A stretch of 30,539 nt of DNA from a virus: positions 1 through 30,539 of the IMG/VR virus record IMGVR_UViG_3300020202_000186; one strand, given 5' to 3'. Of the stretch, positions 6,305 to 30,539 are shown piece after piece; within the stretch, counting starts at the first letter, position 1; every line of letters begins with the position of its first letter. Position numbers and translations under genes: made by a program. A model generated the notes under the pieces. It did not search any database and was not told the origin of the DNA. It saw only the letters and a program-made list of their open reading frames with translations.

Positions 6305-7387
6305 TCAGTTGGTCAGGTTGGTGCGGCCGACTTCGAGAACGGCCATCCAGCCGTCGTTCTCGATCATTCCGCCCTTCCACCAGTTCGCGCCCACGTAGCC
6401 GCGCTGGCCGCCCGGGTCGGACTTGTCGCGCTTGGTGTGGGGGATGTGGAACGGCTCCATGCCGCGCAGGCCGCGAACGGCCACCTGGCTGTGCGCGTCC
6501 TTGGCCATCACGATGACCTGGTACACGTCCGGGTTGGTGCCGCCGGTCGAATACAGGTCGTAGGTGCTGGCCGTCACGGACGTGGCTGCGTCGAAGATCG
6601 GCACGAGGTCCGGGCTGCGCATGAACCGGAACTCCTCGCAGGCGCCCAGCTCGTTGTCGCGCGGCGAGCCGCTGGCGTACTTCTCCGCGGGGGTGAAGTG
6701 CTCCAGGTCGCGCACGTCGCTCGACAGATCGGTGCTGATGTAGACATCGAAGCCGGGGGCGATGGGGCTCGTGTTGAACTTGCCCGAGGCGTCCAGCACG
6801 CGATTGACCATCTTCCCGTGGTTCGCCATCAGCACGCGGGCCACTTCACGCAGGAGGTTCAGCGTGATGGGGCCGTTCACGGTGGCGCGGCTGGTGCCGG
6901 TGCCGCCATAGAACTTGTTCGTACCGGCCTTTAGGATGCCGTACATGAAGGCTTCGTTGACCAGCGTGATGCGCTCAGCCGTCAGTTGCTCTTCCTGCTC
7001 GGGGATGTCGTCCTCGCCGAACTCTGCCGTGTGGTCGGTGTAGCCGTAGAGCACCATGAACTGCTGCATGGTGCAGCTCACGTCCCACGGCGTCACCGAG
7101 TCGGGGCTCGGGGTCACGCCTTCAGTGGCCCTGTGCGCGTTCACGATCGCAGCAGAACGATCGACGGCAGTGGTGGTGCCGAAGAACGTGTTGCGCGTGC
7201 TCGCGTTAGTGCTGGCCGCGCCGTAGGGCAGGAACAGCCGCGCGGTGTAGGTCTTGCTGCTGTTCTTGGGGTACTCGACCTGGCGGCCGGTGCGCGACAG
7301 GCATTCCGTCGGCATGGCGCGGCCGAGGATGCGGCCCTTGAACTCGTCAATCCGCCAGGCGGCGGAACCGTACTGGTGCATCGTCAT
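6305..7387 (-). CDS. Major capsid protein, N4-gp56 family, 360 aa
   Basis: The order of elements is that of the N4-gp56 capsid family: an early basic segment and RTGRQVEYPKNSSKT near residues 32-46, an extended-loop region around residues 47-110 with VTPWDVSCTMQQF near 98-110, a spine helix with ITLVNEAFMYGILKAGTNKFYGG at about 140-162, the central PITLNLLREVARVLMANHG, and the C-terminal VYQVIVMAKDAHSQVAVRG plus GGQRGYVGANWWKGGMIEND. The length is typical. It would form the capsid shell as an HK97-fold protein. It sits directly downstream of the scaffold-like gene, the usual order, and should be the most strongly expressed late gene. The start could also be the ATG two codons in. Confidence 0.9.
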   Translation of the reverse strand: MTMHQYGSAAWRIDEFKGRILGRAMPTECLSRTGRQVEYPKNSSKTYTARLFLPYGAASTNASTRNTFFGTTTAVDRSAAIVNAHRATEGVTPSPDSVTPWDVSCTMQQFMVLYGYTDHTAEFGEDDIPEQEEQLTAERITLVNEAFMYGILKAGTNKFYGGTGTSRATVNGPITLNLLREVARVLMANHGKMVNRVLDASGKFNTSPIAPGFDVYISTDLSSDVRDLEHFTPAEKYASGSPRDNELGACEEFRFMRSPDLVPIFDAATSVTASTYDLYSTGGTNPDVYQVIVMAKDAHSQVAVRGLRGMEPFHIPHTKRDKSDPGGQRGYVGANWWKGGMIENDGWMAVLEVGRTNLTN

Positions 7388-8621: not shown

Positions 8622-11015
8622 TCAGGCCTGGAAGGCTTGTCCCTCTGGCGCTCGACCTTCCGGCTCCACCTTCGGCGTGGCCACCTGCGGCCCCTTGCCG
8701 TCGGCGCCGGCCAGTTCCATCTGCGCCCGCAGTTCCATGGTCAGCTTGGCCAGGTCGACCTTCGCGTCGTCCAGGCTGATCTGCCGACGGTTTGCATGTT
8801 CCATCACCGCCAGTGCGGTGCGCTGCTCCAGCTCCGTCATGCGCTGCACGTGCTGCGCGGCGTCGCGGCGTTCCTGCGAGACGACGTGCGCGGTATCGCG
8901 GTCGGTGTCGACTCGGATCTTCTCGGCCATCAGGCTGTCGCGGCTCGCGGCGATGTTCTCGCGGCTCTTGGCGTTGATCTGGGCCACTGCAATCTCCGGC
9001 GGCGGTGGCACCGGCTGCTTCTTGCGCGCCTCGTACTCCTCGTCCGACATCATCAGGTCCGACGGGTTGATGCGCTTGATGCGGATCCAGGTCTTCGCGT
9101 ACTTGCGCTTGTCGAAGCCGAACTCCGGGTCCGACACCAGCGGGTGCAGCATCAGGATGGCCTGGTCCTGCAAGGCCTTCTCGATCAGGGCAATGCCGGC
9201 GTTTGCGTCCACCTGCATGTTGCTCTTCTCGTCGTCCGGCACATCAGGGTCCAGCAGCAGCATCTCGTAGTAGTCGGTCACGAGAGGGTTGGTGATGCCC
9301 TCGCACACGCTGTATCCCACGTCCCGCAGGAGCTGCATCGCGTTGGAGTCCTGGAGCTGCTGGCCACCGAAGGTGTCGGGCGTGCTCTTGCCGCTCTGGC
9401 CTTGCGTGACCAACGGAATGTTCGTCGTCTCCTCGGCGATGCGGAAGGCAAGCTCCACCCACAGCAGCATCTGAGGGGTGACGTTGGGCACCTGGAATGC
9501 CGACATCGCCGCCCGGATATCGAACGGGCCGGTGTGGTCCGGGTTCCGGCGCACGATCGTGTCAGGCACGATCGTCCAGGTGCTGTTGGGCCACTCGAGC
9601 ACTGTGTCGTCGATGCCGATGATGCTGCCGGCGCTCTTGGCCGCATTGCTCATTCCGGCGCGCACCGCGGCGTTCAACAGCTTCTGAGGGAAGGACAGTT
9701 GCTCGGCCACGCCGATGCCGGCCCAGTGCCCCGAGCGGCGGCGCCACGAGGCGGTGCGGTACGGGAACCGGCCGGACTGCTCCAGCGGGTTCAGCGTGAC
9801 CCGGATGGGCGTGTCGTTGACCATGGTCACGATAGAAAACACCATGTCGGTGTCCTTCGCGCCCTTGGCTTTCAGGCGCTCGGCCTCCTTCGGGTTGGCG
9901 AGGTTCAGCTCCTTGATCGTGATGCTGCCGTGGAAGTACCAGATCTCGAACTGGTTCTTCTTGCCGGTCACGGCGCCGCGCGGGTTGCCGGACTCGACCT
10001 TGTTCACGCGGTCGGGGCCTTCCTCCAGCACCTTGTCGATGGCCCACGGCAGGTAGAAGCGGCGCTGCTTGAGCTTGCCCAGTTTCCCGTAGCCCATGAA
10101 GTCGCGCTCGAAGAAGTAATCCCCGTCGTGGATGTCCTCGCCGCACGCCGGATCAGGGAACGCATTCCAAGGGTCAATCCAGCGATCGGCCGGCTGGGTC
10201 TTGCGCTCGACCTTGATGGCCATCTGCCCTTGACCCTTGCTCACGGCCATCGCGGTGCGCTCGTCAGGGAACGGACCCTTCAGCACCCCTACGCCCAGGC
10301 GCGCCATGTCGAACTCCACCTTGCGCATCTGCGCAGGGTGCTGGCACTCGACCATCCAATCGTGGATGCGCGTCTCGGCCTTTTCGGCCGACTCTTCGGC
10401 CATCTCGATCTGGTGCCGCGCCAGGTCGCCAACGGTCAGCGGCTTCGGCTCGGGCGGGGGCGGCATCGTGCCGTCCGGGCCCGGCTGCGGCATCTCGGCC
10501 TCGGTCGGCGCGCGCATCACCGGCTGACCGTCTGGGCCGGCGTATGGCGTTTCGTCGTCCTTCATGGCCACGGCATCCGGCACCGGCGTGGCCTTCATGC
10601 TGAAGGCCTTGCCGTCCACCGGGATGGTGATCTCGGACACCTTGGCCGCGCCCGCGTCGACGTAGCGGCTGGTGAGGCGCACGAAGCCCGTGCTCTGCGG
10701 ACGCTTCTTGTCCGTATCGCGCGTGAGGGAGCCCGACATGGCCGTGGGCTTGGTCCACACGTTGCCGCTCAGGCCACCTCGGAACTCGTGCCGGTTGGTG
10801 TCGTCGATCCCGTGGTATGCCTCTTCAGCGGCGGCCCAGGTGTCTTCGATGCCGGACTCTTTGCGGCCGTCGATCGCCTCTTTGCGCTTGGCGCAAATGA
10901 GGTTCGCGAAGGCAGCAAAGTCCTCTTCGTACCGCTGCTTCTCGTCTTTTTCTTCCTGCTCGCCTTGGCCGCTGTACGGCTCGTCGTCGGGCAGGCCTTG
11001 CGGCATCTGTGACAC
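8622..11015 (-). CDS. Portal protein, 797 aa
   Basis: The large size and the block order fit portals of short-tailed phages: an acidic N-terminus (residues 1-30), helical segments with FRGGLSGNVWTKPTAM near 80-95, a clip/stem region around residues 120-400 with FERDFMGYGKLGKLKQRRFY, then the wing region FPYRTASWRRRSGHWAGIGVAE and the conserved crown-side helices NVTPQMLLWVELAFRIAEET. The C-terminal 150 residues are a long charged coiled coil (MAEKIRVDTDRDTAHVV, RRDAAQHVQRMTELEQR) that could form the barrel. Portals form the dodecameric DNA channel used by terminase. GTG 11015 is the longest start; ATG 11006 (MPQG) has a better-spaced AGGTG and may be the true one. Confidence 0.9.
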   Translation of the reverse strand: MSQMPQGLPDDEPYSGQGEQEEKDEKQRYEEDFAAFANLICAKRKEAIDGRKESGIEDTWAAAEEAYHGIDDTNRHEFRGGLSGNVWTKPTAMSGSLTRDTDKKRPQSTGFVRLTSRYVDAGAAKVSEITIPVDGKAFSMKATPVPDAVAMKDDETPYAGPDGQPVMRAPTEAEMPQPGPDGTMPPPPEPKPLTVGDLARHQIEMAEESAEKAETRIHDWMVECQHPAQMRKVEFDMARLGVGVLKGPFPDERTAMAVSKGQGQMAIKVERKTQPADRWIDPWNAFPDPACGEDIHDGDYFFERDFMGYGKLGKLKQRRFYLPWAIDKVLEEGPDRVNKVESGNPRGAVTGKKNQFEIWYFHGSITIKELNLANPKEAERLKAKGAKDTDMVFSIVTMVNDTPIRVTLNPLEQSGRFPYRTASWRRRSGHWAGIGVAEQLSFPQKLLNAAVRAGMSNAAKSAGSIIGIDDTVLEWPNSTWTIVPDTIVRRNPDHTGPFDIRAAMSAFQVPNVTPQMLLWVELAFRIAEETTNIPLVTQGQSGKSTPDTFGGQQLQDSNAMQLLRDVGYSVCEGITNPLVTDYYEMLLLDPDVPDDEKSNMQVDANAGIALIEKALQDQAILMLHPLVSDPEFGFDKRKYAKTWIRIKRINPSDLMMSDEEYEARKKQPVPPPPEIAVAQINAKSRENIAASRDSLMAEKIRVDTDRDTAHVVSQERRDAAQHVQRMTELEQRTALAVMEHANRRQISLDDAKVDLAKLTMELRAQMELAGADGKGPQVATPKVEPEGRAPEGQAFQA

Positions 11016-16487: not shown

Positions 16488-16913
16488 TCAGGAACTAGCC
16501 TTGGGCGCGCCGGCAAGCCGGCCGGGCTCTTGCTCTTCCTTGGGCGCGTGGCTGTCGCCACCGGGCCTCTCACCCTCCGGGCCGAGCCCTTCGGTCTCGG
16601 TGCTGCGCATTCGGTCCCTCGCGCGGGCCGCTTCGCGTTCCATCGCAACGTGACCAGTGAGCCGGAGCGCTTCGCCGACGACATCCGCGCCGCTGCGCTC
16701 GACCGCCATGTCGTAGAGCACGCTCATCCGCCCGACTAGCGTGCGCAGCGCGCAGCCCCTACCAATGGTCCCGTGCCCCACGGTCACGTCACAAGGCAGC
16801 GGCCAATCCATCGGGTCCGGGGTTCCGCCTGCGCTCAGGCGCCCCTTTTCGAAGCCGGCGTCATAGCCCGCCCGGCGGGCCGCAAGTTCTCTGGTCTGTT
16901 CTTCGGTCAGCAT
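16488..16913 (-). CDS. Early protein of unknown function with repeat-encoded tail, 141 aa
   Basis: It starts at ATG 16913 with GAGGAG nearby. Residues 1-95 are a helical, soluble domain (MLTEEQTRELAARRAGYDAG; CALRTLVGRMSVLYDMAVER). From about residue 97 on, the protein becomes a Gly/Pro/Glu-rich tail (TEGLGPEGERPGGDSHAPKE) encoded by the structured repeat at 16501-16625. The repeat therefore makes up the last third, and the true domain may once have ended earlier. It is the last gene of the second early block. Confidence 0.65.
   Translation of the reverse strand: MLTEEQTRELAARRAGYDAGFEKGRLSAGGTPDPMDWPLPCDVTVGHGTIGRGCALRTLVGRMSVLYDMAVERSGADVVGEALRLTGHVAMEREAARARDRMRSTETEGLGPEGERPGGDSHAPKEEQEPGRLAGAPKASS
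16501..16625 (-). repeat. Structured dispersed repeat, copy A (with partial second 3' end)
   Basis: On the minus strand the copy runs from CGCGCGAGGGA (16625) via GACCGAAGGGC and GCCCGG-hairpin-CGCGCCCA to a second AGCCCGG-hairpin-CGCGCCCAA (16529-16501). The hairpins are TGGC-GACA-GCCA (16549-16560) and CCGGC-TT-GCCGG (16510-16521). An internal stem, CCGAG/CTCGG, is at 16582-16586 with 16596-16600. It lies inside the end of the 141-aa gene. Confidence 0.75.
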
Positions 16914-16922
16914 CTCTACTCC

Positions 16923-17117
16923 TCAGTTGAACGGCCACGGCCAAATGCTGCGCCGCTGAATCACGACGGGAGGGCTCTGCACATGGAGCGCCCTTTCCAG
17001 CTTCTCGATTGCCGGGAAGGCGCGCTTGCGGAAGTCGTCCTTGAACTCCTGTAGCACCTTCTCGGCCTCTTCCCGCGCGATGGCACGGACTTGCTCTTCG
17101 CTCAGCGGCTCAGCCAT
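16923..17117 (-). CDS. Small hypothetical early protein, 64 aa
   Basis: MAEPLSEEQVRAIAREEAEK continues into a charged amphipathic helix (VLQEFKDDFRKRAFPAIEKL), so the protein is a short coiled-coil or helical hairpin. The start ATG 17117 shares eight nt with the upstream stop (ATGGCTGA), the coupling found at many junctions in this block. Its start region (EEQVRAIAREE) resembles the end of the zinc-binding protein before it (LTEEDVRRIVREELTRR), so the two may share a recently copied segment. Function unknown. Confidence 0.65.
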   Translation of the reverse strand: MAEPLSEEQVRAIAREEAEKVLQEFKDDFRKRAFPAIEKLERALHVQSPPVVIQRRSIWPWPFN

Positions 17118-17376
17118 TGGTATCTCCTCTGCGAGTCAGTTCCTCTCGGACGATGCGGCGCACGTCCTCTTCGGTGAGTCGCGGCGGGGCCACGGGCATG
17201 TGCCATAGGTGATGAGTGGGCGGCGGATTGGGCGGCAGATGCTGGAACGTTGCGGGGTAACTCGGCCCGCGCGTGCACTCCGGGTGATAGGCGTAGCCAC
17301 CGAGGTACACGGCCTCATTGGCAATGGGGCGGCCGCAGTGGGAGCAGTGCACCGGGACGAAGGTTCCTGCGCTCAT
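17110..17376 (-). CDS. Small zinc-site protein, 88 aa
   Basis: A Cys-x2-Cys pair (C11, C14; HCSHCGRP) and His31/Cys34 (YHPEC) near a short beta-hairpin form a likely single zinc site. The middle is Pro-rich (NPPPTHHLWHMPVAPPRL) and the end is a charged helix (TEEDVRRIVREELTRRGDTN). Small zinc fingers of this kind are frequent in phage early regions and usually bind protein or DNA. The start ATG 17376 overlaps the previous stop by 4 nt. Function is not known. Confidence 0.65.
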   Translation of the reverse strand: MSAGTFVPVHCSHCGRPIANEAVYLGGYAYHPECTRGPSYPATFQHLPPNPPPTHHLWHMPVAPPRLTEEDVRRIVREELTRRGDTNG

Positions 17377-17813
17377 GGGGTATCTCCTTCAGGGGCGGCG
17401 GGGAGTGGCGCCCAGTGCGTGGGCGCGAAGTGGTGCGGCCAGCGGGAGAACTCTCCGGCTGTGGCCTGCCAAACGCACCAGGGGTCCGTGGTGTAGGGCC
17501 TCCAGCCCGTGAAGCCGTTGGACACGTTGAAGGCGCGGACCACGAACATGCCTTTGCCAATCGGCGCAGTCTCGATCGGCTGCCGCCCGCTCCGCACTTC
17601 CCCCGCGTGAGGGATGGGAGTCGCTTGCGACGGACAGCTCGACGGCGAAGCCGGCACGCCCAAAGATTCGAGCGCTGCTCTTGCGCAGGCTTCACCGAAG
17701 GCGCGCATTTGGGCTGCAGTGAAGCACGACTCAGGGCGCCCTGCAAAAGCAGGCACGCGCAAAAGCGGCTCCGGCATCGGCACATCTACCAGCACTGCTT
17801 TGATGTCAGCCAT
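17373..17813 (-). CDS. DUF551-like early protein, 146 aa
   Basis: ATG 17813 (MADIKAVLVDVPMPEPLLRV) has a GGGGAGG site; the longer frame upstream is a shadow. The C-terminal 70 residues show the DUF551 pattern: RQPIETAPIGKGMFVVRAFN, FTGWRPYTTDPW, then THWAPLPAAPEGD. DUF551 is widespread in phages and its role is unknown; it often closes mosaic early proteins. The linker before it (VPASPSSCPSQATPIPHAG) is encoded by the opposite strand of a structured repeat copy (17604-17662). It starts in an 8-nt stop/start overlap. Confidence 0.7.
   Translation of the reverse strand: MADIKAVLVDVPMPEPLLRVPAFAGRPESCFTAAQMRAFGEACARAALESLGVPASPSSCPSQATPIPHAGEVRSGRQPIETAPIGKGMFVVRAFNVSNGFTGWRPYTTDPWCVWQATAGEFSRWPHHFAPTHWAPLPAAPEGDTP
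17604..17662 (+). repeat. Structured dispersed repeat, copy B, inverted relative to genes
   Basis: On the plus strand the copy runs CGCGTGAGGGAT, a hairpin TCGC-TT-GCGA (17621-17630), then AGCTCGA followed by CGGC-GAA-GCCG (17643-17653) and CACGCCCA. It has the same 5' and 3' ends as the other copies but lies opposite to gene direction. Confidence 0.6.
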
Positions 17814-18030
17814 TACGCCTCCCCTTCGTCGCAGCACACTGAAGGCCGTTGAGATAGACCCGCATCTGCCCGGATTTCGTGACGCGGACATCGATGAAGT
17901 GCTTTTCGGTCTTGATGCGGATCACCGGCTGGTTGTCTTTCCCGACGACGGCAATGAAGCCCACGTCTGCAGCGCCAACACGGAAGCCACTATCCGTGCG
18001 TCGGCCGCTGAGCGCTTCAGGTGCTGACAT
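17806..18030 (-). CDS. Small hypothetical early protein, 74 aa
   Basis: ATG 18030 is preceded by GGAG spaced 6 nt (GAAGGAGCCCGTA). The protein is a compact beta-rich unit: TDSGFRVGAADVGFIAVVGK, then NQPVIRIKTEKHFIDVRVTK and SGQMRVYLNGLQC. It has a basic end. The stop lies inside the start of the next gene (ATGGCTGA). The beta pattern could be a small DNA- or protein-binding fold, but nothing diagnostic is visible. Confidence 0.6.
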   Translation of the reverse strand: MSAPEALSGRRTDSGFRVGAADVGFIAVVGKDNQPVIRIKTEKHFIDVRVTKSGQMRVYLNGLQCAATKGRRNG

Positions 18031-18304
18031 TACGGGCTCCTTCAATGGCCGCATCGAGTACGCGGAGGATGTGTGCGTTGGCATCGGGGAACGACGACGG
18101 TAGGCACCGCAGCCGTTCGCCCACCGCAACCGCGAAGGCGAACCACTGAGCGTCACGCTCGGCCAGACGCTCCAAGTGCTGCATCGCGTGCTGGAGCAGC
18201 AATCCCGGGCTGTACTCGTGGCTTGCGATCTTGGCCTTGATCTCATCGATGGTGTAGAGGTCAGCTATCCGCTTGCCTGATGGTAGCCAGGGGATGTCAG
18301 CCAT
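18017..18304 (-). CDS. Hypothetical early protein, 95 aa
   Basis: ATG 18304 (MADIPWLPSGKRIADLYTID) lies in an 8-nt overlap with the previous stop. The protein is all-alpha, with a charged middle (KAKIASHEYSPGLLLQHAMQ, HLERLAERDAQWFAFAVAVG). It overlaps the 74-aa gene by 14 nt. No motif suggests function. The shared MADI/MAD opening with other genes of the block comes from the repeated start signal, not from homology. Confidence 0.6.
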   Translation of the reverse strand: MADIPWLPSGKRIADLYTIDEIKAKIASHEYSPGLLLQHAMQHLERLAERDAQWFAFAVAVGERLRCLPSSFPDANAHILRVLDAAIEGARNVST

Positions 18305-18701
18305 TGCGGTCCCTTTCGATTGCGGCACCTTCCGGCGGCAAATACTTGGCGGCTGCATGGATTGCACCAGCGAGACCAGCGTCCCACTGGTTCAGTTCGC
18401 GGTATGGGCTGTAGACGCAAGCCCCCTCGATGTTTCGCAGCCAGGACTGGAGTTGGTCCACCTTTTCGGTCATCCTCGCAACCTCTGCCTCAGCCTTCTG
18501 CATGCGCTCGATGTACATGGAGCACAGCGCCTGCGCTTCGCGGGTCGCAGCCAGCATGAACTCGCAGCTCTCGTGAAGCCTCCGAAGCTCGGACGCTGCC
18601 AACGTCATCGCTTCATCGCGCTCCATCGGCGCTGTGCCCGTCTCGTTCACCCACCAGTCCAGCACATCTGCCAGACGAAGCGCTTCAGGGATGTCAGCCA
18701 T
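18297..18701 (-). CDS. Hypothetical coiled-coil early protein, 134 aa
   Basis: MADIPEALRLADVLDWWVNE begins an alpha-helical protein. Residues 30-95 form a long coiled coil (DEAMTLAASELRRLHESCEF, MLAATREAQALCSMYIERMQ, KAEAEVARMTEKVDQLQSWL). The end, AGLAGAIHAAAKYLPPEG, is a short helix. Proteins with RRLHESCEFMLAA-like helices accompany many phage early genes. Starts and stops both use the 8-nt overlap. No enzyme motif is visible. Confidence 0.6.
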   Translation of the reverse strand: MADIPEALRLADVLDWWVNETGTAPMERDEAMTLAASELRRLHESCEFMLAATREAQALCSMYIERMQKAEAEVARMTEKVDQLQSWLRNIEGACVYSPYRELNQWDAGLAGAIHAAAKYLPPEGAAIERDRNG

Positions 18702-18873
18702 GGCGCATAAACCTTTCTGCGAGTTGCTTCAGGCAATCCTTCAGGCGCGCTTCTTCCACATCCGGGAAGTCTTCCTTGAGTGCCGCAAGTAGCTCCGCAG
18801 CCGTGCGATATCTTCCGGTACGCGCAAGACGGAAGGCGTGCATGAGGATTTCCACATCAGCGATGTCAGCCAT
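18694..18873 (-). CDS. Small helical protein, 59 aa
   Basis: ATG 18873 has GGAGG close by (GGAGGCTTTA). The protein MADIADVEILMHAFRLARTG plus RYRTAAELLAALKEDFPDVE and EARLKDCLKQLAERF folds as three short helices, a size suitable for a helix-turn-helix or protein-binding bundle. No recognition helix can be named with confidence. Both ends sit in 8-nt overlaps. Confidence 0.55.
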   Translation of the reverse strand: MADIADVEILMHAFRLARTGRYRTAAELLAALKEDFPDVEEARLKDCLKQLAERFMRHG

Positions 18874-19195
18874 TAAAGCCTCCAAGAGCAGCAGCAGCAC
18901 TGACGATGGCAAACCGCATCGCGCCGGCCGCGTCCGACCCTGCGTTTTGACCCCTCATGGCGCGGTTTGGCATGGCAGCGCAAGCCCTATCGCGATCATC
19001 GCGCGTCCATGTGAGGTCGAGTCGCAGCTTCACAGCAAGCTCCAGCGCATCGCCCGAGTTTGTGCGGGGATTCCATTCCCGCCCCGTCACCACGCCCGAA
19101 GGCTTGGCGACGTCCGTGAACAGAACCCCTGCAGACTCGCGAACGGTGATGCCGGCGGCCTTGGCGGCAGCCTTGAGCAAGTCGATGTCACTCAT
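18866..19195 (-). CDS. Hypothetical early protein, 109 aa
   Basis: ATG 19195 (MSDIDLLKAAAKAAGITVRE) follows AAGGGGATA. The N-terminus is helical, then a mixed middle, GVVTGREWNPRTNSGDALEL, contains an NPxTxxGDALxL pattern; phage proteins carrying 'W(N)PLxDxGDALRLAVKL' are common and of unknown function. The remaining part (AVKLRLDLTWTRDDRDRACA, RFAIVSAAAALGG) is helical. I recall this 'GDALELAVKL' module in many phage early genes, where it is annotated as conserved hypothetical. Confidence 0.65.
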   Translation of the reverse strand: MSDIDLLKAAAKAAGITVRESAGVLFTDVAKPSGVVTGREWNPRTNSGDALELAVKLRLDLTWTRDDRDRACAAMPNRAMRGQNAGSDAAGAMRFAIVSAAAALGGFNG

Positions 19196-19478
19196 GCCTA
19201 TCCCCTTCTCCAAGGTGCTCACGCAGCCGGGCGAGTTCTTCGTTCAGCCGCTCCACTTCAGCATGCAGACGGCGAAGTTCATCGCGGATTGCGATAGCGT
19301 CTTGCGCCTCCAGGCGGTCGGGTCCGTCGATGTGCGCTTGCAGCGCATCAGCCAGACGATCGGCCAGACGCGGTGCTTCGGCCGCGCGCGACGCACCAGA
19401 CAGCCTCAGTTGCCCGCCATCTCGGTTCGGGCACGTGAGCTTGTGCTCTGCGCTCTTGCAGATGGGGCAGTCAGCCAT
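19188..19478 (-). CDS. Zinc-site plus coiled-coil protein, 96 aa
   Basis: It opens MADCPICKSAEHKLTCPNRD: Cys4, Cys7 and Cys16 could hold zinc with a His (H12). Residues 40-96 are a long coiled coil (HIDGPDRLEAQDAIAIRDEL, RRLHAEVERLNEELARLREH). A small zinc knuckle on a coiled coil suggests an oligomeric adaptor. The upstream stop is inside its start (ATGGCTGA), and its own stop lies in ATGAGTGA of the next gene. Function unknown. Confidence 0.6.
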   Translation of the reverse strand: MADCPICKSAEHKLTCPNRDGGQLRLSGASRAAEAPRLADRLADALQAHIDGPDRLEAQDAIAIRDELRRLHAEVERLNEELARLREHLGEGDRHE

Positions 19479-19695
19479 TGCTTTCCTCCTTCTCGCGCCA
19501 CATCGGCACCAACACGATCCCGGCGTCGCTCATCATCGTGTCGGTGGGCGGCCGCTCGCCGGACAGGACGCGGCTGACGAATACCGATTGCACGCCCCAG
19601 GCCCTTGCGGCGGCGGCCTGAGTTCTGTACTTGCGCCTGATGTGGCCGCGTAGCATGTCGGAAAGCGTCTGCCTGAGCGCTGGCGAAAGCTTCAT
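19471..19695 (-). CDS. Small HTH DNA-binding protein (Cro/XRE-like), 74 aa
   Basis: ATG 19695 overlaps the previous stop by one nt (TGATG). Residues 22-50, YRTQAAAARAWGVQSVFVSR then VLSGERPPTDTMM, fit a helix-turn-helix of the lambda Cro/XRE type: TQAAAARAWG as the first helix, and VQSVFVSRVLSG as the recognition helix. The flanks are basic (RGHIRRKYR). Such small proteins usually repress or activate phage promoters. Which operator it binds is not shown; the palindromes at 21358 and 21392 are one candidate. Confidence 0.65.
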   Translation of the reverse strand: MKLSPALRQTLSDMLRGHIRRKYRTQAAAARAWGVQSVFVSRVLSGERPPTDTMMSDAGIVLVPMWREKEESNG

Positions 19696-20657
19696 CACCC
19701 CTCCTTCTCGCCAGGAGTGGGGCGAGGGCGCGCCTTGAACATCCTGCAATCGAACGGCACCGGAGCGCGGCAGAAGGACGTGACGCCTTCACCGCAGGCC
19801 ATGCAGTAACGAAGCGCCGGCTCAGGCGCAGGTGCTGGAGGGGTGGCGCGAGCGGCTTGCCAGACTTCCCACGCGAGTTTCCCTGACGGCGAATAGCCGG
19901 TGCGCCCAATGAGGTGGCGAGCGCGTGCCCACGCCTCGAAAGCCTCGCGCTCGCTCGCCGGCTCTGCGCTCTGTGTGTCTCCTGCCGGGTCTGTTTTGGG
20001 CGCGTCCTGCGGACCGGGCTCGGCGTGCTCCGCATTCGGCCCTGGCGGGCACTCACCCTTCGGGCTTGATCCCTCGCGCGGCCACCATCCGCGGCCGTCG
20101 CAGTCCGGGCACTCGGCCGCCGGGTCCGAATCGCCATACGCACTCAGGCGCATGTCGATCGTTCCCTTGCCTCTGCAGGTTTCGCACTCGCGTTCGTCGT
20201 CCGGCCGCTCGGGGTCGAATGGATGTAGTCTGCGAAGCGCGCCGCGCACCTTCCGGCCGTTCGGGCACGCGCAGTTCGGAGATGGCGGCAGCCCGCAGTT
20301 GATGCACTGGCCAGGGGCGAACGGCACGAATGGTTCGCGCCCGCCTGCTTGACAGTTCTCCGTGTTGAGATTGGGGCTCAGGCCCTTGCACGCCGCGTCA
20401 GCGATCGCAGGGAGCCCCGCGACCGGAGAGCGCGACGGCGAAGCCGGGACGCACACATCCGGTGTTGGCACAGCCGGCGTGGCGCCAGGGGCGGGAGTGC
20501 GGCGGTTCCAAGCTTCGACGGCCGCGGCTTCGTCGTCCCTCATAGGCCCCTCGGCGTGGCAGCCGTGGCACATGACCCAATGCCGATCCCCTCCCTGCGC
20601 AACTTCTAGGGCGGTATCGCCGCAGAAAGGGCAAGGCTTGAGGCTCGGCTCACTCAT
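19695..20657 (-). CDS. Four-zinc-site mosaic protein with Lar-like N-terminus, 320 aa
   Basis: ATG 20657 has AGGAG seven nt upstream. Four Cys clusters occur: C9/C12/C30/C33 (KPCPFCGDTALEV ... HGC, the pattern of restriction-alleviation Lar-type zinc ribbons); C118/C121/C129/C131; C158/C161/C183/C186 (CETCRGKGT and CPDCDGRGWW, DnaJ-type ribbon); and C285/C288/C296/C304. Residues 238-270 (REAFEAWARARHLIGR ... LAWEVWQAARA) match a module often seen in mosaic phage proteins. Linkers between them are encoded by structured repeats (copies C and D). The role may be nucleic-acid or host-protein binding; anti-restriction is suggested only by the first module. The frame is open upstream, see the fusion entry. 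Confidence 0.65.
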   Translation of the reverse strand: MSEPSLKPCPFCGDTALEVAQGGDRHWVMCHGCHAEGPMRDDEAAAVEAWNRRTPAPGATPAVPTPDVCVPASPSRSPVAGLPAIADAACKGLSPNLNTENCQAGGREPFVPFAPGQCINCGLPPSPNCACPNGRKVRGALRRLHPFDPERPDDERECETCRGKGTIDMRLSAYGDSDPAAECPDCDGRGWWPREGSSPKGECPPGPNAEHAEPGPQDAPKTDPAGDTQSAEPASEREAFEAWARARHLIGRTGYSPSGKLAWEVWQAARATPPAPAPEPALRYCMACGEGVTSFCRAPVPFDCRMFKARPRPTPGEKEG

Positions 20658-20933
20658 GGCTGTTCTCCTGCTGTTGAGAGGCGCGGCGATCTCTTCGCGC
20701 GCAACGTCTCGGGCGTGGTTGATGTCCCAGTTGAACAGGCCGTGCTTGGCGAACATGAAGTCGAACTCCGGAGCGCGGGTCGCCTTGACGTCGGTCCACT
20801 TCAGCCCGTAGCCAACGCCGTTGGCGGACGCCAGGCCGCGGCTGATGGCGTTGGCGCGGCTGGCCGCCATCGCAATGCCGGTGTCTTCCTGCCACGGGAT
20901 CACATGGACACGCCACGCGCGGGGCTCAGCCAC
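19695..20933 (-). CDS. Possible read-through fusion of a 92-aa protein with the zinc mosaic, 412 aa
   Basis: GTG 20933 has GAAGGAG upstream and shares eight nt (GTGGCTGA) with the previous stop. It encodes a conserved-looking unit: VAEPRAWRVHVIPWQEDTGI, then GYGLKWTDVKATRAPEFDFM, FAKHGLFNWDINHARDVARE. No stop follows before ATG 20657, so the frame continues as NSRRTAMSEP into the zinc mosaic. At other junctions of this block the upstream gene stops at the TGA inside the start signal. Here that TGA (20652-20650) is out of frame. The out-of-frame reading QQQENSHE-stop just before it looks like an ancestral end. A two-base change near 20670-20690 could have fused them. Confidence 0.55.
   Translation of the reverse strand: MAEPRAWRVHVIPWQEDTGIAMAASRANAISRGLASANGVGYGLKWTDVKATRAPEFDFMFAKHGLFNWDINHARDVAREEIAAPLNSRRTAMSEPSLKPCPFCGDTALEVAQGGDRHWVMCHGCHAEGPMRDDEAAAVEAWNRRTPAPGATPAVPTPDVCVPASPSRSPVAGLPAIADAACKGLSPNLNTENCQAGGREPFVPFAPGQCINCGLPPSPNCACPNGRKVRGALRRLHPFDPERPDDERECETCRGKGTIDMRLSAYGDSDPAAECPDCDGRGWWPREGSSPKGECPPGPNAEHAEPGPQDAPKTDPAGDTQSAEPASEREAFEAWARARHLIGRTGYSPSGKLAWEVWQAARATPPAPAPEPALRYCMACGEGVTSFCRAPVPFDCRMFKARPRPTPGEKEG
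19997..20080 (-). repeat. Structured dispersed repeat, copy C
   Basis: On the minus strand it runs from CGCGCGAGGGA (20080) via CCCGAAGGGTGA and GGGCCGAATGCGGAGCACG to GAGCCCGG, the hairpin TCC-GCA-GGA (20013-20005) and CGCGCCCA. The ends match copies A and E; the hairpin differs in sequence but still pairs. Confidence 0.7.
20405..20454 (+). repeat. Degenerate structured repeat, copy D, inverted
   Basis: The plus strand has CGCAGGGAG, then GCGCGA and CGGC-GAA-GCCG (20436-20446) followed by GGACGCACACA. It resembles copy B in its 3' half but has lost much of the 5' end. Confidence 0.4.
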
Positions 20934-21138
20934 GGCTGTTCTCCTTCGGGGGCTGCGTGGCGCGATCACGCATCGCAGACACGAACTGCTCCTGCCGGTT
21001 CGGGACCAAGGCGAATGCCCTGGCGCCAGGCGTGACGCCGCGGCGCTGGCGAGCGCACTTCTTCGTGTGGACGGCGAACATCCAGGCGCCATTGCCGAGG
21101 AAGCCGCGGTAGTAGCTGATGACGAGCTTTGCGCTCAT
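20926..21138 (-). CDS. Small hypothetical early protein, 70 aa
   Basis: MSAKLVISYYRGFLGNGAWM is beta-rich and basic, and continues FAVHTKKCARQRRGVTPGAR AFALVPNR. The positive charge suggests nucleic-acid binding, but nothing more can be said. ATG 21138 overlaps the upstream stop by 4 nt; its own stop lies inside GTGGCTGA of the next gene. Confidence 0.55.
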   Translation of the reverse strand: MSAKLVISYYRGFLGNGAWMFAVHTKKCARQRRGVTPGARAFALVPNRQEQFVSAMRDRATQPPKENSRG

Positions 21139-21332
21139 GCTGCGCTCCTGGTGCGGAGTTCGTAGACGAGACCGGGGTTGGCGCGCTGGATGCGGCGCAG
21201 CTCTTCGGCGGCGAACTGCTCACTCCACGTTTCACGGATTGCCCGCTCTTCACCCTGGAACCAGCACTGCAGATCCTTGCCGCCGTTGTCCGGGTCGTTC
21301 TTCAGCCAGAGTTGGAACATCGTGCGTGCCAT
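21135..21332 (-). CDS. First gene of the second early block, 65 aa
   Basis: MARTMFQLWLKNDPDNGGKD, then QCWFQGEERAIRETWSEQFA and AEELRRIQRANPGLVYELRT. The protein is a small helical, charged unit. ATG 21332 has AGGAG six nt upstream and lies about 17 nt after the likely start point of the minus-strand promoter at 21356-21384. First position after a divergent control region is typical of a gene expressed early after infection. Function unknown. Confidence 0.6.
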   Translation of the reverse strand: MARTMFQLWLKNDPDNGGKDLQCWFQGEERAIRETWSEQFAAEELRRIQRANPGLVYELRTRSAA

Positions 21333-21355
21333 GGTGTGCTCCTGTTGATGGCTAA

Positions 21356-21384
21356 ATCGTATATACGCAAATGAAGACCGTCAA
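21356..21384 (-). promoter_or_regulatory. Minus-strand promoter of the second early block
   Basis: TTGACG (21384-21379) and TACGAT (21361-21356) are separated by 17 bp, five and four of six consensus bases. Transcription would start near 21349, giving a short leader before ATG 21332. Operator-like palindrome 1 covers the -10. Confidence 0.65.
21358..21367. promoter_or_regulatory. Operator-like palindrome 1
   Basis: CGTATATACG is a perfect 10-bp palindrome. With flanks it is TCGTATATACGC, matching palindrome 2 in 11 of 12 bases. It overlaps the -10 of the minus-strand promoter, so binding should repress that promoter. Confidence 0.6.
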
Positions 21385-21391
21385 GCGTTTT

Positions 21392-21401
21392 CGTAGATAC
21401 G
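21392..21401. promoter_or_regulatory. Operator-like palindrome 2
   Basis: CGTAGATACG has perfect 4-bp arms (CGTA/TACG). Its centre lies 34 bp from that of palindrome 1. It abuts the plus-strand -10 (TATAGT) and lies upstream of the minus-strand -35, so a bound regulator could act on both promoters. Confidence 0.6.
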
Positions 21402-21402
21402 C

Positions 21403-21408
21403 TATAGT
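21403..21408 (+). promoter_or_regulatory. Plus-strand -10 (TATAGT) for the small regulator, leaderless
   Basis: TATAGT matches the -10 consensus in five of six bases and lies 6 nt before ATG 21415. The transcript would start at or next to the ATG, and no Shine-Dalgarno sequence is present. The -35 region (near 21380) is poor, so activation may be needed. Confidence 0.5.
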
Positions 21409-21414
21409 CGGCAC

Positions 21415-21600
21415 ATGGACCAAGAGAAGCCCCCGCCGCAGCGCGGCCGCAAGCCCATCAGCAAGACCGGCGAGGTGATGCTCGCGCGACCCATCCGCAT
21501 GACCGATGCCGAGTGGGAGAAATGCAAGGCCCTGGGCGGTGCAGCATGGGTGCGAGAGAAGATCAATCGCGCGAAGCCTCCGAAGTCGGGGGCTGGGTGA
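21415..21600 (+). CDS. Small putative DNA-binding regulator, 61 aa, only plus-strand gene
   Basis: The N-terminus is basic and Pro-rich (PPPQRGRKPISKTGE). The rest, VMLARPIRMTDAEWEKCKAL then GGAAWVREKINRA, has the strand-helix-helix layout of ribbon-helix-helix proteins: a short strand (MLARPIRM), a helix from DAEWEKCKAL and a second from AWVREKINRA. Divergent position, a leaderless-looking message and two nearby palindromes suggest an autoregulator controlling the minus-strand promoter. The last 38 nt overlap the end of the opposing 561-aa gene. The fold is inferred from pattern only; a mere ORF by chance is possible but unlikely given the promoter layout. Confidence 0.65.
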   Translation: MDQEKPPPQRGRKPISKTGEVMLARPIRMTDAEWEKCKALGGAAWVREKINRAKPPKSGAG

Positions 21601-23248
21601 GGGCCGCGCACGCCGCACGAAGCACGTCGCGGTGTAGGTAGTCGGCAATGCCGTCGCCGAAGTAGAAGCGCGTGCCATAGGGCTGCTTCTCCCAGAAGGC
21701 GTCCGCGTCGGCGAACGCCTGCAGACCACCAGCACCCTTGAACACGCCGTGCGCCTGGAGCGTTTGTGCAGCCGTCGCCTCCCGCTCATCCACCCGCCCG
21801 CCTGCGGGCTCTGCGCGAGCTACCTGTGGGGCTGCGTAGAGTGGCACCCATTCGCCCGGCTTCTCTTCGCGCAGCATCTTGCCGCGGACCGACTTGTGAT
21901 GGTGCGGCCCTTCATACAGGCCATCGCTCCACGGCCGATACCAGAACACCGGCTCGGCCGGCTCTGCGCGAGTAGCGGCGAGGGCTGCGCGGAGGGCGGC
22001 ATCTAGGGTTTCGAGCGCCTGGAAAGCGGCCACCGTGCGCGTCTGGAACCTATCGTCATCCGTTGCCAACGAGACTGCTTCGGCGAAACTCTTTGCCAGC
22101 CGCAATAAGTGCTGCACCTGGGCTTCATCGGTCAGCGGCACTACCCCTTTGCTCTGTGCGGGCACGTACTCGACATCGGGTCCGCCATCCTCCAGGCGCA
22201 GCCACACGCGACCCGCAACGCCTTCAGGCGCCGTGCCTCCGGTGTAGCGCGTGATGACGGGCCAGGGCCACGTCTTGCCAGCATTCGCCCAGGCCACCGT
22301 GCGCGCATGCGGGTCTACGGCGGGCCGGGCGGCGGCAAGAAGCGCGCGGCCGGCCCTGACGGCAACAGCGCGGATGTCGCTGATTTCGAGCGGCGTCAAC
22401 TCACGCTTGAGAACCCGCAGGATCGAACTGTCGCGAATGACCGTCATCACGATTGCGTTGATGTCGCGGTCAGTCAGCGGCACGTTCTCCTGTGCCATCG
22501 CCGCAGCCTCGGGCTTCTGTGGTGCCTGTGGGGTGGCGATCACAGCGTGGAACGCGCCGTCACCCATCCAAGCATCTACCACTTGGCCGGCCGGCGTCTC
22601 GGCCTGTGGTGCCTGCGGGGTGGCGGTCAGCGCCTGCAGGATTTCCCGCGCGAGGGGCGCAGCATCGTCCGGCCGGTAGTAGAGGCCGGTGTCCACCGTG
22701 ATGACGCGAGCGAAGCAGTCGTCTTCATCAAGGAAGCCGATTTCAGCCGTGCCATTGCTGTGCGCTAAGACGTGATTCAGCCTCCAGCCGCCCAGCAACT
22801 TCGCTTCGCTGGCCTGTGGTGCCTCCTGGGGTGCTGGCGCGCTGGAGCGTGAGGCGATCATCTGACGATATGCGGCCTGGATGTCAGGCGCCTCCTGTGC
22901 TGGTGTGGGGTGGGTGGCGACATCCCGGTAACGAACCCAAGGGCCGCGTGCCGACTCGTACATCAGGCCGTTGTCTGGGCTCAGTGCAAAGCGTGGCAGC
23001 ACTTCAGCCGGCACCCCCTCCTGTGCCCCGGCGGGTGATTCTGGGCGCGTGGCTTCGCCACCGGGCTCTTGCCCCTCCGGGGTTGCGCCCTTCGGTCGCA
23101 AGCCTTCGGCCGCCGATCCCTCGCGCGCGTGCTGCTTTCGCGCTTGGTCGATGATGGTGAACACGTCAGCGATGGCCGGTACGTATTCGGCGGCCTCAAT
23201 GCTGAGGGTCTGTTCAATGCGGGCGAGCGTGTCGAGAAGAAGGCTCAT
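21563..23248 (-). CDS. Large mosaic early protein, 561 aa
   Basis: ATG 23248 (MSLLLDTLARIEQTLSIEAA) overlaps the upstream stop by 4 nt; the longer frame is a shadow. It looks assembled from modules joined by Pro/Ala/Gln linkers. A helical start is followed by a repeat-encoded linker (EGLRPKGATPEGQEPGGEAT). Then come RFALSPDNGLMYESARGPWV, SEAKLLGGWRLNHVLAHSNG, DRDINAIVMTVIRDSSILRV, and FWYRPWSDGLYEGPHHHKSV ending GEWVPLYAAPQ, a common phage module. Linkers carry TPQAPQ twice, from a duplicated 26-bp DNA segment. No enzyme motif is evident. It ends the right-hand block, overlapping the plus-strand gene by 38 nt. Confidence 0.65.
   Translation of the reverse strand: MSLLLDTLARIEQTLSIEAAEYVPAIADVFTIIDQARKQHAREGSAAEGLRPKGATPEGQEPGGEATRPESPAGAQEGVPAEVLPRFALSPDNGLMYESARGPWVRYRDVATHPTPAQEAPDIQAAYRQMIASRSSAPAPQEAPQASEAKLLGGWRLNHVLAHSNGTAEIGFLDEDDCFARVITVDTGLYYRPDDAAPLAREILQALTATPQAPQAETPAGQVVDAWMGDGAFHAVIATPQAPQKPEAAAMAQENVPLTDRDINAIVMTVIRDSSILRVLKRELTPLEISDIRAVAVRAGRALLAAARPAVDPHARTVAWANAGKTWPWPVITRYTGGTAPEGVAGRVWLRLEDGGPDVEYVPAQSKGVVPLTDEAQVQHLLRLAKSFAEAVSLATDDDRFQTRTVAAFQALETLDAALRAALAATRAEPAEPVFWYRPWSDGLYEGPHHHKSVRGKMLREEKPGEWVPLYAAPQVARAEPAGGRVDEREATAAQTLQAHGVFKGAGGLQAFADADAFWEKQPYGTRFYFGDGIADYLHRDVLRAACAALTQPPTSEASRD
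22517..22629 (-). repeat. Direct repeat pair encoding TPQAPQ linkers
   Basis: The 26-bp segments 22517-22542 and 22604-22629 match at 24 of 26 positions (CTGTGGTGCCTG-T/C-GGGGTGG on the plus strand). A weaker copy begins near 22814. They join protein modules inside the 561-aa gene. Confidence 0.7.
23042..23127 (-). repeat. Structured dispersed repeat, copy E
   Basis: On the minus strand it runs CGCGCGAGGGATC, then TTGCG/CGCAA pairing around ACCGAAGGGC (23101-23083), CCCCGGAGGGG (23082-23072), GAGCCCGG, the hairpin TGGC-GAA-GCCA (23060-23050), and CGCGCCCA. It encodes the Gly/Glu-rich linker at about residues 40-70 of the 561-aa protein. Confidence 0.75.
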
Positions 23249-23463
23249 GCTGTTTTCCACTTCAGGTGATTGCGCCCGTAGACGATCCACAGCGCGAGGT
23301 TCATCGGCAGCAGGCCCCAGGCGCCAACGGTGACGATCCAGGCCAGCCACAGCGCCTGATTCAGCAGACCCCACAGCCACGCCTTCGGGTGCTTGTTGCC
23401 GGCCAGCAGCGTCATCCAGATGGTGATGGCAGACATCAGCCAGGGCAGGTAGTCGCGGATCAC
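23245..23463 (-). CDS. Small membrane protein, 72 aa
   Basis: GTG 23463 overlaps the upstream stop by 4 nt. Two or three hydrophobic segments are visible: YLPWLMSAITIWMTLLAG (5-22), the Trp-rich AWLWGLLNQALWLAWIVTVG, and WGLLPMNLALWIVYGRN. Positive residues near the loops support a helical hairpin in the inner membrane. I have seen the NQALWLxWI...GLLPMNLALW pattern as a conserved phage membrane protein without known function. It is not next to lysis genes, so a holin role is doubtful. Confidence 0.7.
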   Translation of the reverse strand: MIRDYLPWLMSAITIWMTLLAGNKHPKAWLWGLLNQALWLAWIVTVGAWGLLPMNLALWIVYGRNHLKWKTA

Positions 23464-23948
23464 TCCGCACTCCGCACGCTTGCGTCAGGGATCGTCGGAG
23501 CTTGCGACAGAGAGCCCGGCGGCGACGAAGGAGCCGAGACGCCCAGGTCTTGAGTGGCCCCGGCGGTTGATGCTGCGGGAGATGCGCGCTCGTTGCCGTA
23601 TGCGAGGATGGCCTGTCGCAGTTTCTCCCAGGCGTCGGCAGCATCGCCGCTGGGCGTGTCGTGCTGGCGGTTCTCCTGGCCTTCCTTGAAGGCACAGCCC
23701 CAGTACACAGCAGCGGCGTCAAGAATTCTGTTCGGCAGTCCGGCCGGCGCGCACACTGCTGTAGCAGCAGGAGGGGCGAGAGCGGCGCGGATGGCGGTTT
23801 CGAGGGCGGTGCTCGCAGCAACAAAGGCCGTCTGCGATGACGGGCTGTCGAACCACCGTTTGTGGTTTTCGCGCGCGTCAGCGTAGGCGGCGGCCAGCCG
23901 CATCAGTTCCTGAACTTGGTCTTCCGCTCCTGTGGGGGCGTGGTTCAT
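23460..23948 (-). CDS. Hypothetical early protein, 162 aa
   Basis: The first 55 residues are helical (AEDQVQELMRLAAAYADARE then NHKRWFDSPSSQTAFVAAST), the middle mixed (RILDAAAVYWGCAFKEGQEN; WEKLRQAILAYGNE), and the last 40 residues Ser/Pro/Ala-rich and probably disordered. The pattern of a helical head with a low-complexity tail is shared with other mosaic proteins here. ATG 23948 and its neighbours overlap by 4 nt. No function assigned. Confidence 0.6.
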   Translation of the reverse strand: MNHAPTGAEDQVQELMRLAAAYADARENHKRWFDSPSSQTAFVAASTALETAIRAALAPPAATAVCAPAGLPNRILDAAAVYWGCAFKEGQENRQHDTPSGDAADAWEKLRQAILAYGNERASPAASTAGATQDLGVSAPSSPPGSLSQAPTIPDASVRSAE

Positions 23949-26147: not shown

Positions 26148-27677
26148 TCAGGCCTCCAGCGCCAGCGCAACCAGCGGGCGAAGCTCAGCGGCCGCAGCGC
26201 GGATCTCGCCCAGTTCGCCGGTTGCGCACAGTTCCAGGAACTCGGCGAACTCGGCCAGGAAGTCGAAAGACGGTTCGGGCGCGCGTTCTTCGGCGTGCGC
26301 GCCCTTGCCCTCAGACCCACTTGACGGGACATCAGCCGCTTCGGCCCCGCTGCTGGTACATGCGCCTGCTGCAGCAGGCAAACTGCCACTCTCTTGGGCG
26401 TTCGTGGTGATGGTTGCGGGTCTTTCCCCGCCGTCATGGGCCCCACTGTTCTCGCGGTATTCCTCCGAGCCGTCGGGCATAGCCACAGCTCGGGTTCCCT
26501 GATTGCCAGGCCACCCGTTCAGGGAGGCGCCCACGCCACCCATCAATTCAGTTGCCGGCTGGAGTGCTTCCAGCGCGGCAATGTAGTCGTCGATGTGCTC
26601 CTCGGGGCACACACGACCGGCGGGGTCAAGCGCGCGATACGCATCGCGCAGGGCATAGGTCCGCTCGGCGCCACAGCGCGCGAACGTAGCTTCGAAGGCC
26701 TGGTTCAGGCGCGCCTGCTGCAGGCTCTTGGCGCGGACCTTTTCATCGGCCACGCGGCGCGCTTCCGCATCGGCCTGCCGCTGGCGCAGTTCCGCGGCCT
26801 GGCGCTCGATCTCGGCGCGCTGCGCGGCAAGCTCGGCGGCCACACGCTCGTTCTCGATGCGCTCCTCGTCGGCCTTGCGGCGCTGTTCCGCGACACGCGC
26901 TGCCTCGGCGGCCTGGGCTTCCGCATCCTTGCGCTTCTGCTCGGCCTGCGCGGCGCGAAGCTCTTCCAGTTCCTTGCGCTCTGCCACCACCCGCGCCGCC
27001 TCGGCCTCGGTGTGCAGCGCGGCCTTGTGGGCCATCTCCAGCTTAGCAACAGCACTCGTGCGCGCGGCCTCGGCCTGGCCGATCATCTCCTGGAACACCA
27101 GGGGATCAATGACACGTGCGCGCATGTCAGCCAGCCGCTTCGCGATGAAGTCAGACGACCAGCCGGCCACGTTGGCTTCCATGGCCAGGTCGTGCAGCGC
27201 TTCCTGAATCGCAGTCAGGCGCGCGAACTCCGCGTCCGCCTTCTGGCGCTTGATCTCTTCCTTGCGCGCTTCCTCGGCCTTGATCTGCCGGTCCACCGGC
27301 TCTTCGCCAAGCAGCAACTGTTCTGTCAGCCAGGCGGCGCGGGCATCGATGTCCTTGCCGAGCGCCAGCACGGGCGCCTTCGCGATCTTGCGCACCTTCT
27401 CGACGTTGATGCGAGGCTCGCGCCAGGCCGCGCGGTGCGCCACAGCTTCGGCCATGCCCTTGGTGGATGTCGCGTCATAGACAAGATCCACAGGGAAGCG
27501 CGCATGCAGGTCGGCCAAGCCGGCGCTGATCCTGTCGAATTCGCTGATGGCCGACTCAACACGGTCGATGCTCGAACGAATGGCAACGGCCGACCGGTCG
27601 GTTGCGATTGGGAGCGGCGGCGTGACAGGCTCGCTGGAGACGAGCTGCACATCGTCGGCGATGTCGTCGTAGTTCAT
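26148..27677 (-). CDS. Large coiled-coil early protein (DUF1351-like), 509 aa
   Basis: Residues 25-140 are helical (VRKIAKAPVLALGKDIDARA, AWLTEQLLLGEEPVDRQIKA), and residues about 190-330 are a long Ala/Arg/Glu coiled coil (AEAARVVAERKELEELRAAQ, AEIERQAAELRQRQADAEAR). Then follow a compact helical domain (QAFEATFARCGAERTYALRD) and a disordered Gly/Ser part before a helical end. The N-terminal part resembles DUF1351-type phage proteins found with recombination genes; the match is tentative. It overlaps the recombination-like gene by 4 nt, so both are likely made together. It may be a nuclease partner or scaffold. Confidence 0.6.
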   Translation of the reverse strand: MNYDDIADDVQLVSSEPVTPPLPIATDRSAVAIRSSIDRVESAISEFDRISAGLADLHARFPVDLVYDATSTKGMAEAVAHRAAWREPRINVEKVRKIAKAPVLALGKDIDARAAWLTEQLLLGEEPVDRQIKAEEARKEEIKRQKADAEFARLTAIQEALHDLAMEANVAGWSSDFIAKRLADMRARVIDPLVFQEMIGQAEAARTSAVAKLEMAHKAALHTEAEAARVVAERKELEELRAAQAEQKRKDAEAQAAEAARVAEQRRKADEERIENERVAAELAAQRAEIERQAAELRQRQADAEARRVADEKVRAKSLQQARLNQAFEATFARCGAERTYALRDAYRALDPAGRVCPEEHIDDYIAALEALQPATELMGGVGASLNGWPGNQGTRAVAMPDGSEEYRENSGAHDGGERPATITTNAQESGSLPAAAGACTSSGAEAADVPSSGSEGKGAHAEERAPEPSFDFLAEFAEFLELCATGELGEIRAAAAELRPLVALALEA

Positions 27678-30298: not shown

Positions 30299-30539
30299 GA
30301 TGCCTCCACAATTTCGCCCGCTTCATTCACGCGATAGAACGTATCGGGCTTGATCCCGTTCTCGCCGACGATCGCTGCGCGGGCATGCACGATCTTTCGG
30401 TTCTCGTCGCGATAGACCAGGAACAGCGCACACCCGGCAGCGCCGCGCGCTCGGCCTTTTCGGCCGCTGGCCGTGGCCGCGCCGGAGTAGCCGCTGGCCG
30501 TGGCCGCGCCGGAGTAGCCGCTGGCCGTGGCCGCGCCGT
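30295..30539 (-). CDS. Partial repeat protein (beta-roll-like), C-terminal 81 residues visible
   Basis: The gene enters from the right edge, so its start is absent. Its frame reads GAATASGYS repeated, then ASGRKGRARGAAGCALFLVY and HARAAIVGENGIKPDTFYRV, ending EAGEIVEAS. The nine-residue repeats and the C-terminal domain match phage and bacterial proteins with long Ser/Gly/Ala/Thr repeat tracts ending in a short conserved cap; I recall such proteins, with no known role. Repeats of this kind often form a stacked beta-roll. Expansion by slippage is likely, since the DNA repeat is perfect. Confidence 0.6.
   Translation of the reverse strand, partial: GAATASGYSGAATASGYSGAATASGRKGRARGAAGCALFLVYRDENRKIVHARAAIVGENGIKPDTFYRVNEAGEIVEAS
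30464..30539 (-). repeat. 27-bp tandem repeat, at least 2.8 units
   Basis: Units at 30464-30490 and 30491-30517 are identical; a third starts at 30518 and matches 21 of the 22 bases visible before the edge. Each unit encodes one GAATASGYS-type step. The array may continue outside the window. Confidence 0.85.

Follow-up and report, generated by a model that had tools for sequence, protein, structure and literature searches.

Six copies of a folded repeat in a tailed-phage fragment

The virus record IMGVR_UViG_3300020202_000186 is 30,539 bases long; this whole stretch is referred to here as the window, and positions are counted within it. The window is a fragment of a tailed phage, as judged from a portal-like protein at 8622–11006, and its named genes are carried on the minus strand. 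Our subject is a repeat of about 80 bases, present in the window in six copies (A to F), whose members belong to a previously uncatalogued, widespread family of elements. We describe the family and its fold, the rule by which its copies are oriented, the genes that they bracket, the breakpoints of homology found at them, and the separability of the element from the single-stranded promoter Frpo of conjugative plasmids.

All six copies were matched by our covariance model R2, with E values from 5e-12 to 5e-3, and their strands alternate strictly along the window (A−, B+, C−, D+, E−, F+). An earlier reading of the sequence (the original prediction) had listed five of them, all of which are present at E <0.002, and had missed copy F at 23482–23542 (+), which was also found independently by model R1 (E 5e-3). 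Copies A (16544–16624 (−); 65.2 bits, E 1e-10) and E (23045–23126 (−); 71.8 bits, E 5e-12) are full elements in sense orientation, A near the 3′ end of the open reading frame (ORF) at 16488–16913 and E near the start of a large ORF at 21563–23248, for which a search for relatives found none. Copy C (20000–20079 (−); 52 bits, E 8e-8) is also sense. The antisense copies are short forms: B, with one inner hairpin (17605–17659 (+); 32.7 bits, E 9e-4), D (20395–20452 (+); 32.2 bits, E 1.2e-3) and F (29.1 bits, E 5e-3 with R2), which lies at the 3′ end of the ORF at 23460–23948. The original prediction had treated 16501–16625 as one unit; an element is indeed present there, as copy A, but the sequence at 16501–16529 (−), read directly, is the 3′ half of a second element (GAGCCCGG-CCGGC-TT-GCCGG-CGCGCCCAA) in tandem behind it. 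Reading frames continue uninterrupted through the copies, as had been claimed.

A family with a covarying fold

Two scans with DNA patterns yielded about 50 carrier IMG/VR contigs, a sample of phages that is biased towards contigs matching strict patterns. Besides the six copies in the window, the covariance model found about 200 further copies in phage contigs, with 1 to 15 copies per individual phage. In a seed of 19 copies the fold comprises stem P1 (GCGCG/CGCGC), stem P2 (GGG-A-TC/GA-G-CCC), hairpins P3 and P4 (A.G mismatch), an optional P5, and P6 adjoining P1. The closing ends that the original prediction had described as shared are real, and they also pair and covary (GCGCG/CGCGC, GCGTG/CACGC, GCGTC/GACGC). 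Among 210 copies, the 3′ tail reads C (195), C (175), A (140), A (122), and the base preceding the 5′ edge is never G. A weak R1 match at 26678–26714 (+) in the window (E 0.05), limited to P6 and the closing stem, could be a remnant or a chance match.

In the seed alignment, whose 19 sequences were not fitted to a model, 98% of cells are paired and 15 of the 27 pairs have changed on both sides, a result that none of 500 shuffles reached. An alignment of 139 copies has 95.7% of cells paired and both-side changes in 25 of the 27 pairs, including those of P1 and P2. Its covariation score is 0.543, compared with 0.127 ± 0.006 for shuffled alignments and at most 0.075 for slid partners; this alignment was fitted to the model, and the shuffles ignore relatedness. 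The proposal that structure is under selection, which had been made to depend on covariation persisting in a larger alignment, is borne out well beyond chance.

A comparison of the window with Rfam had also been suggested. It was run at two thresholds and no family matched: nothing was found at the gathering level, two chance-level small nucleolar RNA matches only were returned at the E-value level, and membership of the HEARO/IscB guide RNAs did not hold. Neither the element nor its sequence is described in Rfam or in the literature examined, a search that was not exhaustive; part of the sequence has been in F plasmid records for decades. Pattern matches in genome contigs (actinobacteria and others) were mostly chance, only about 19 of 80 loci having a match to the model.

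Homology breaks and protein domains meet at the elements

Not one of 19 inter-phage alignments that hold an element and its flank runs through the element, and most of them end 0–1 nucleotides (nt) from its 5′ edge or 2–4 nt beyond its 3′ edge. Loci L011 and L056 have flanks that are 88–91% alike and bodies that differ exactly between the element edges. Their right-hand elements differ while the sequence is identical from CCCAACACC outward, from which it follows that the element travelled with the body. In L231 a gene is flush-bracketed by elements, and its homologue in L230, which is 72.6% alike, is without them.

Three copies in the window lie inside chimeric genes. The Lar-like gene at 19695–20657 (−) is built, in order, from a Lar domain (PF14354 match at residues 5–54, 5.5e-13), copy D (residues 69–88), a bracketed zinc-finger-like body (20080–20394 (−)) with weak Pfam and PHROG matches to DnaJ/anti-TRAP/Q-like, copy C (residues 193–220) and a C-terminal segment. 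Residues 1–90, 133–194 and 210–313 each have matches in a different set of phages, and the model detects no element in these; residues 133–194 alone match phage locus L287, again without an element. The DUF551 gene at 17373–17813 (−) is split in the same way at copy B (residues 52–70), with its leader (residues 1–50) matched by L056 and its DUF551 segment (residues 59–141) by L295. Because the segments on either side match different phages, copies B, C and D are domain joints. The concern that copies might be found only as parts of homologous protein domains can be set aside, as they join unrelated bodies and are also found between genes. The role of the elements as joints is well supported.

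Such joints could be passive. As has been proposed for lambdoid boundary sequences, the repeats might simply serve the homologous or single-strand-annealing recombination of the phages, with the fold of little importance; ERF, NinB and SSB are encoded by the phages, and the joints are located at the elements. We regard this as possible but rather unlikely, since the sequence drifts while pairing is kept, the opposite of selection for homology, since exchanged segments bring their own, different element, and since elements also occur in plasmids and in single-stranded DNA (ssDNA) viruses.

Copies bracket genes in outward orientation

The arrangement of copies relative to genes was assessed with gene calls from a simple home-made caller. 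Within ORFs, 66 antisense copies lie in the N-terminal half and 61 sense copies in the C-terminal half, making 127 against 25 in the opposite arrangement. Copies at both ends are found in 46 of 946 called genes, where permutation within loci gave a mean of 11.7 and a maximum of 22 (2,000 permutations), whereas pairs across a gene junction show no excess (11, with 9.8 expected). The unit is therefore the bracketed gene. At 20-odd loci a single small ORF is bracketed, in the order start codon, about seven codons, antisense element, unrelated body, sense element and the ribosome site of the next gene. A model of junction miniature inverted-repeat transposable elements (MITEs), in which the unit between two genes consists of the C-copy, a ribosome site and the N-copy, was rejected for the lack of excess junction pairs.

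Start-end and stop-end copies form distinct lineages, the nearest neighbour having the same role for 107 of 150 copies (74 expected). The nearest relative is in the same phage for only 7 of 150 copies (4 expected) and is usually found in other phages. Amplification within a genome is thus unsupported, and the distribution of relatives points away from copying within a genome and towards a common pool, as in integron arrays. In locus L235 two different bodies lie between near-identical element pairs, 97–98% alike (967–1051, 1581–1659, 6372–6456 and 6644–6722), and these pairs are the best sign of recent exchange. In Microcystis phage Mvi-Yong1342-1 (L252), copies at 3371–3450 (−) and 4001–4076 (+) both bracket an annotated hypothetical protein (3340–4089).

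Copies that are in frame within ORFs and near their ends, with homologues that have no element, would also be expected of a selfish palindrome similar in type to MITEs or to the Rickettsia palindromic elements, and elements of this kind are known in Rickettsia (PMC10969869). Insertions would then be independent, would survive only at gene ends and would have no role in cassette exchange. We find this doubtful: pairing within the same gene is four times expectation, orientation is strictly outward, the lineages of the two gene ends are distinct, nearest relatives lie outside the same genome, and unrelated segments meet at the element.

Copies on plasmids, in ssDNA viruses and on chromosomes

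The family is present on 658 PLSDB plasmids, and one plasmid copy matches 2,064 of 5,426 complete Escherichia coli genomes; 4,423 of the places matched are plasmid-borne and 57 are chromosomal. All copies examined on E. coli plasmids run in the same direction within any one record. The F plasmid has copies at 58093–58172 and 63481–63560, both on the minus strand. These positions fit the published description of Frpo2 and Frpo1 (PMC9849209), where the exact Frpo limits come from text descriptions, not base coordinates. Downstream of the copies in F and R100 are ssbF and the ygeA/ygeB pair; in F the two copies are about 5 kb apart, with a hok-like gene between them. They are opposite the leading genes, which places them on the template and transferred strand (PMC7736820). 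A transferred-strand position upstream of the leading-region genes, as expected of Frpo, is found in F, R100 and other F-type plasmids, but not in the window.

At Frpo the element can be separated from the promoter. R100 site 3 has a 223-nt Frpo block that lacks the element, and the last 69 nt of this block are present in ColIb-P9; at both, Frpo homology ends exactly at the 5′ edge of the element, and the same site in two other plasmids has the element. Judged by where Frpo-block homology stops and by the occurrence of the block alone, the element would be distinct from the promoter hairpin that rebuilds the −35 and −10 boxes. Following the Frpo hairpin block at this joint, R100 site 3 and ColIb-P9 have another structured block of about 140 nt (L286, 30091–29950 region; L285, near 27884 and 34917), possibly an alternative cap.

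The ssDNA microvirus KT264808 (a gokushovirus) has a sense copy that begins 4 nt downstream of the VP1 stop. A second microvirus, MH572438 (L251, 2708–2776), has a weaker copy (E 1.5e-5) between its scaffolding and replication genes. On some chromosomes there are as many as 14 copies, almost all of them oriented alike (G040, a Bradyrhizobium genome, and also G041 and G052), and these copies are probably on conjugative elements.

The exact placement on the transferred strand at Frpo1 and Frpo2, the uniform orientation in conjugative plasmids and the intergenic copy in an ssDNA virus would be in keeping with a function in single-strand initiation. On that view the element belongs to Frpo/ssi and, in every place where it is found, primes transcription or DNA synthesis from ssDNA. 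As a general account we think this unlikely. The Frpo hairpin block occurs without the element, the element lies upstream of the promoter block, and the outward pairs that are flush with both gene ends in double-stranded DNA phages are unlike an origin or a promoter.

The fold fits DNA rather than RNA

GNA minihairpins contrast in their stability with RNA. The hairpin loops of the elements are GNA triloops in 332 of 475 cases (70%), mostly closed by a C-G pair, with 9 GNRA loops and no UNCG loop, and the GNA loops sit on the element strand whether the messenger RNA (mRNA) reads the element in sense or antisense. Minihairpins of the d(C-GNA-G) type are extraordinarily stable, a DNA property known from the literature. 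The consensus is the minimum-energy (MFE) fold, with at least 85% of pairs, for 44 of 150 copies with DNA parameters and for 3 of 150 with RNA parameters, and the pair probability is higher with DNA than with RNA parameters in 111 of 150 copies. In 59 of 60 comparisons the element strand is more stable than its own complement. The MFE fold with DNA parameters equals the consensus for copies A and B of the window and is near it for copy F. From these models, the elements appear to have been selected to fold as ssDNA rather than as RNA.

A structured RNA that acts in the mRNA (stability, translation) would suit copies that are transcribed within genes, with compensatory changes that are compatible with RNA too, but it is highly improbable, because half of the copies are antisense to their own mRNA and yet conserve the A.G mismatches and GNA loops of the same strand, the fold is poorly recovered with RNA parameters, and Rfam is without a match.

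Other features of the window

At the end of the record (30463–30538), a 22-nt unit is repeated in three exact copies with 27 nt spacing. A tRNA scan of the window found none, and blast of the region against named phages gave no match.

Elements as proposed caps and joints of exchangeable cassettes

The repeats that the original prediction had observed are confirmed, and its interpretation is partly supported. In suggesting a mobile hairpin element or a recombination site, it came close to the reading that the evidence favours. An RNA controlling expression, in contrast, is at odds with a fold, loop type and strand pattern that fit DNA instead, and a packaging site with the many copies per phage and the copies on plasmids and conjugative elements.

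We consider it probable that the elements are folded-ssDNA caps and in-frame joints for gene and domain cassettes. Our model is of a strand that would fold into an outer stem, P1, and an inner stem, P2, enclosing two or three hairpins; hairpin P6 would stack on P1, and a CCA(A) tail at the 3′ end would stay single-stranded. As a module the element is separable, its 5′ edge being flush with a functional unit and its 3′ tail pointing away, and one rule holds in all settings closely examined: on the folding strand, it is the 3′ side of the unit that the element caps. A gene or domain of a tailed phage would be capped on both strands, so that an antisense copy lies at its start and a sense copy at its end, and bracketed units from a shared pool would be joined in frame in the early region to give new genes and domain fusions at elements. 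In conjugative plasmids the transferred strand would have a single cap, next to the single-stranded promoter Frpo, and in ssDNA viruses the packaged strand would be capped. We infer that the folded ssDNA form is the acting one, and that joining may be aided by a trans-acting factor, such as recombination or ssDNA-annealing proteins of the host or the phage, and would then not reflect only chance recombination plus selection.

Several results weigh against caps and joints of this kind. Copies C and D fold poorly in isolation with DNA parameters, and there is no sign of recent copying inside one genome. A Y1 transposase (PF01797) was found in 0 of 22 phage records, although it could act from the host, ERF is encoded in only 11 of the 22, and a search for a protein family common to ten phages found none. 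Lastly, family-wide similarity of the element alone can carry an alignment to the element edge, so that most breakpoints show the elements to be joints and do not show the position of a strand cut.

More tentatively, tailed phages, conjugative plasmids and ssDNA viruses may have in common a dedicated folded-ssDNA 3′ cap, which would mark the ends of transferable units, be recognised in trans, and allow integron-like in-frame swapping of genes and domains without the carriage of a recombinase. If true, this would explain how the early genes of phages can be mosaic at the level of both gene and domain with their reading frames surviving, and a single ssDNA element would tie phage mosaicism to conjugation. 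It would also give a name to a feature found in about 2,000 of the 5,426 complete E. coli genomes, where any annotation that it has is as small hypothetical proteins, and would make testable what acts at the Frpo sites of the F plasmid besides the promoter.

Comparison with known systems

The Frpo/ssi promoters (Frpo1 and Frpo2 of F, ssi2 and ssi3 of ColIb-P9) are likewise folded ssDNA on the transferred strand; the element is found at both F sites, abutting the promoter hairpin block. In R100 site 3 and ColIb-P9, however, the promoter block occurs with no element, and phage copies that bracket genes are seen without the promoter block.

Integron cassettes resemble the bracketed genes in having ORFs flush with folded-ssDNA sites, in the diversity of sites within an array and in the retention of structure as sequence varies. 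Whereas attC is one direct single hairpin, each gene here has two inverted, multi-branched elements. The elements were rejected as attC sites by their R boxes (RYYYAAC / GTTRRRY), since no more than 33 of 210 copies have RYYYAAC at the edge.

Like the Rickettsia palindromic elements, the copies described here are palindromes read in frame inside unrelated proteins, but they extend beyond one genus, form outward pairs, are located in phages and plasmids, and have a branched, covarying fold. REP/REPIN sequences with their RAYT (Y1) are also short hairpin elements in inverted pairs that are mobilised through ssDNA; they differ in tag and fold, and here whole genes are bracketed and the 22 phage records have no Y1 transposase.

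Lambdoid boundary sequences are short conserved sequences at gene borders, where mosaics join. The present elements are, by comparison, about 80 nt long, structured, and portable among unrelated phages, plasmids and ssDNA viruses. Each early promoter of phage N4 is a single small DNA hairpin read by a virion polymerase. These functional hairpins share with the elements their three-base loops and their proximity to early genes, but are without a role in cassettes.

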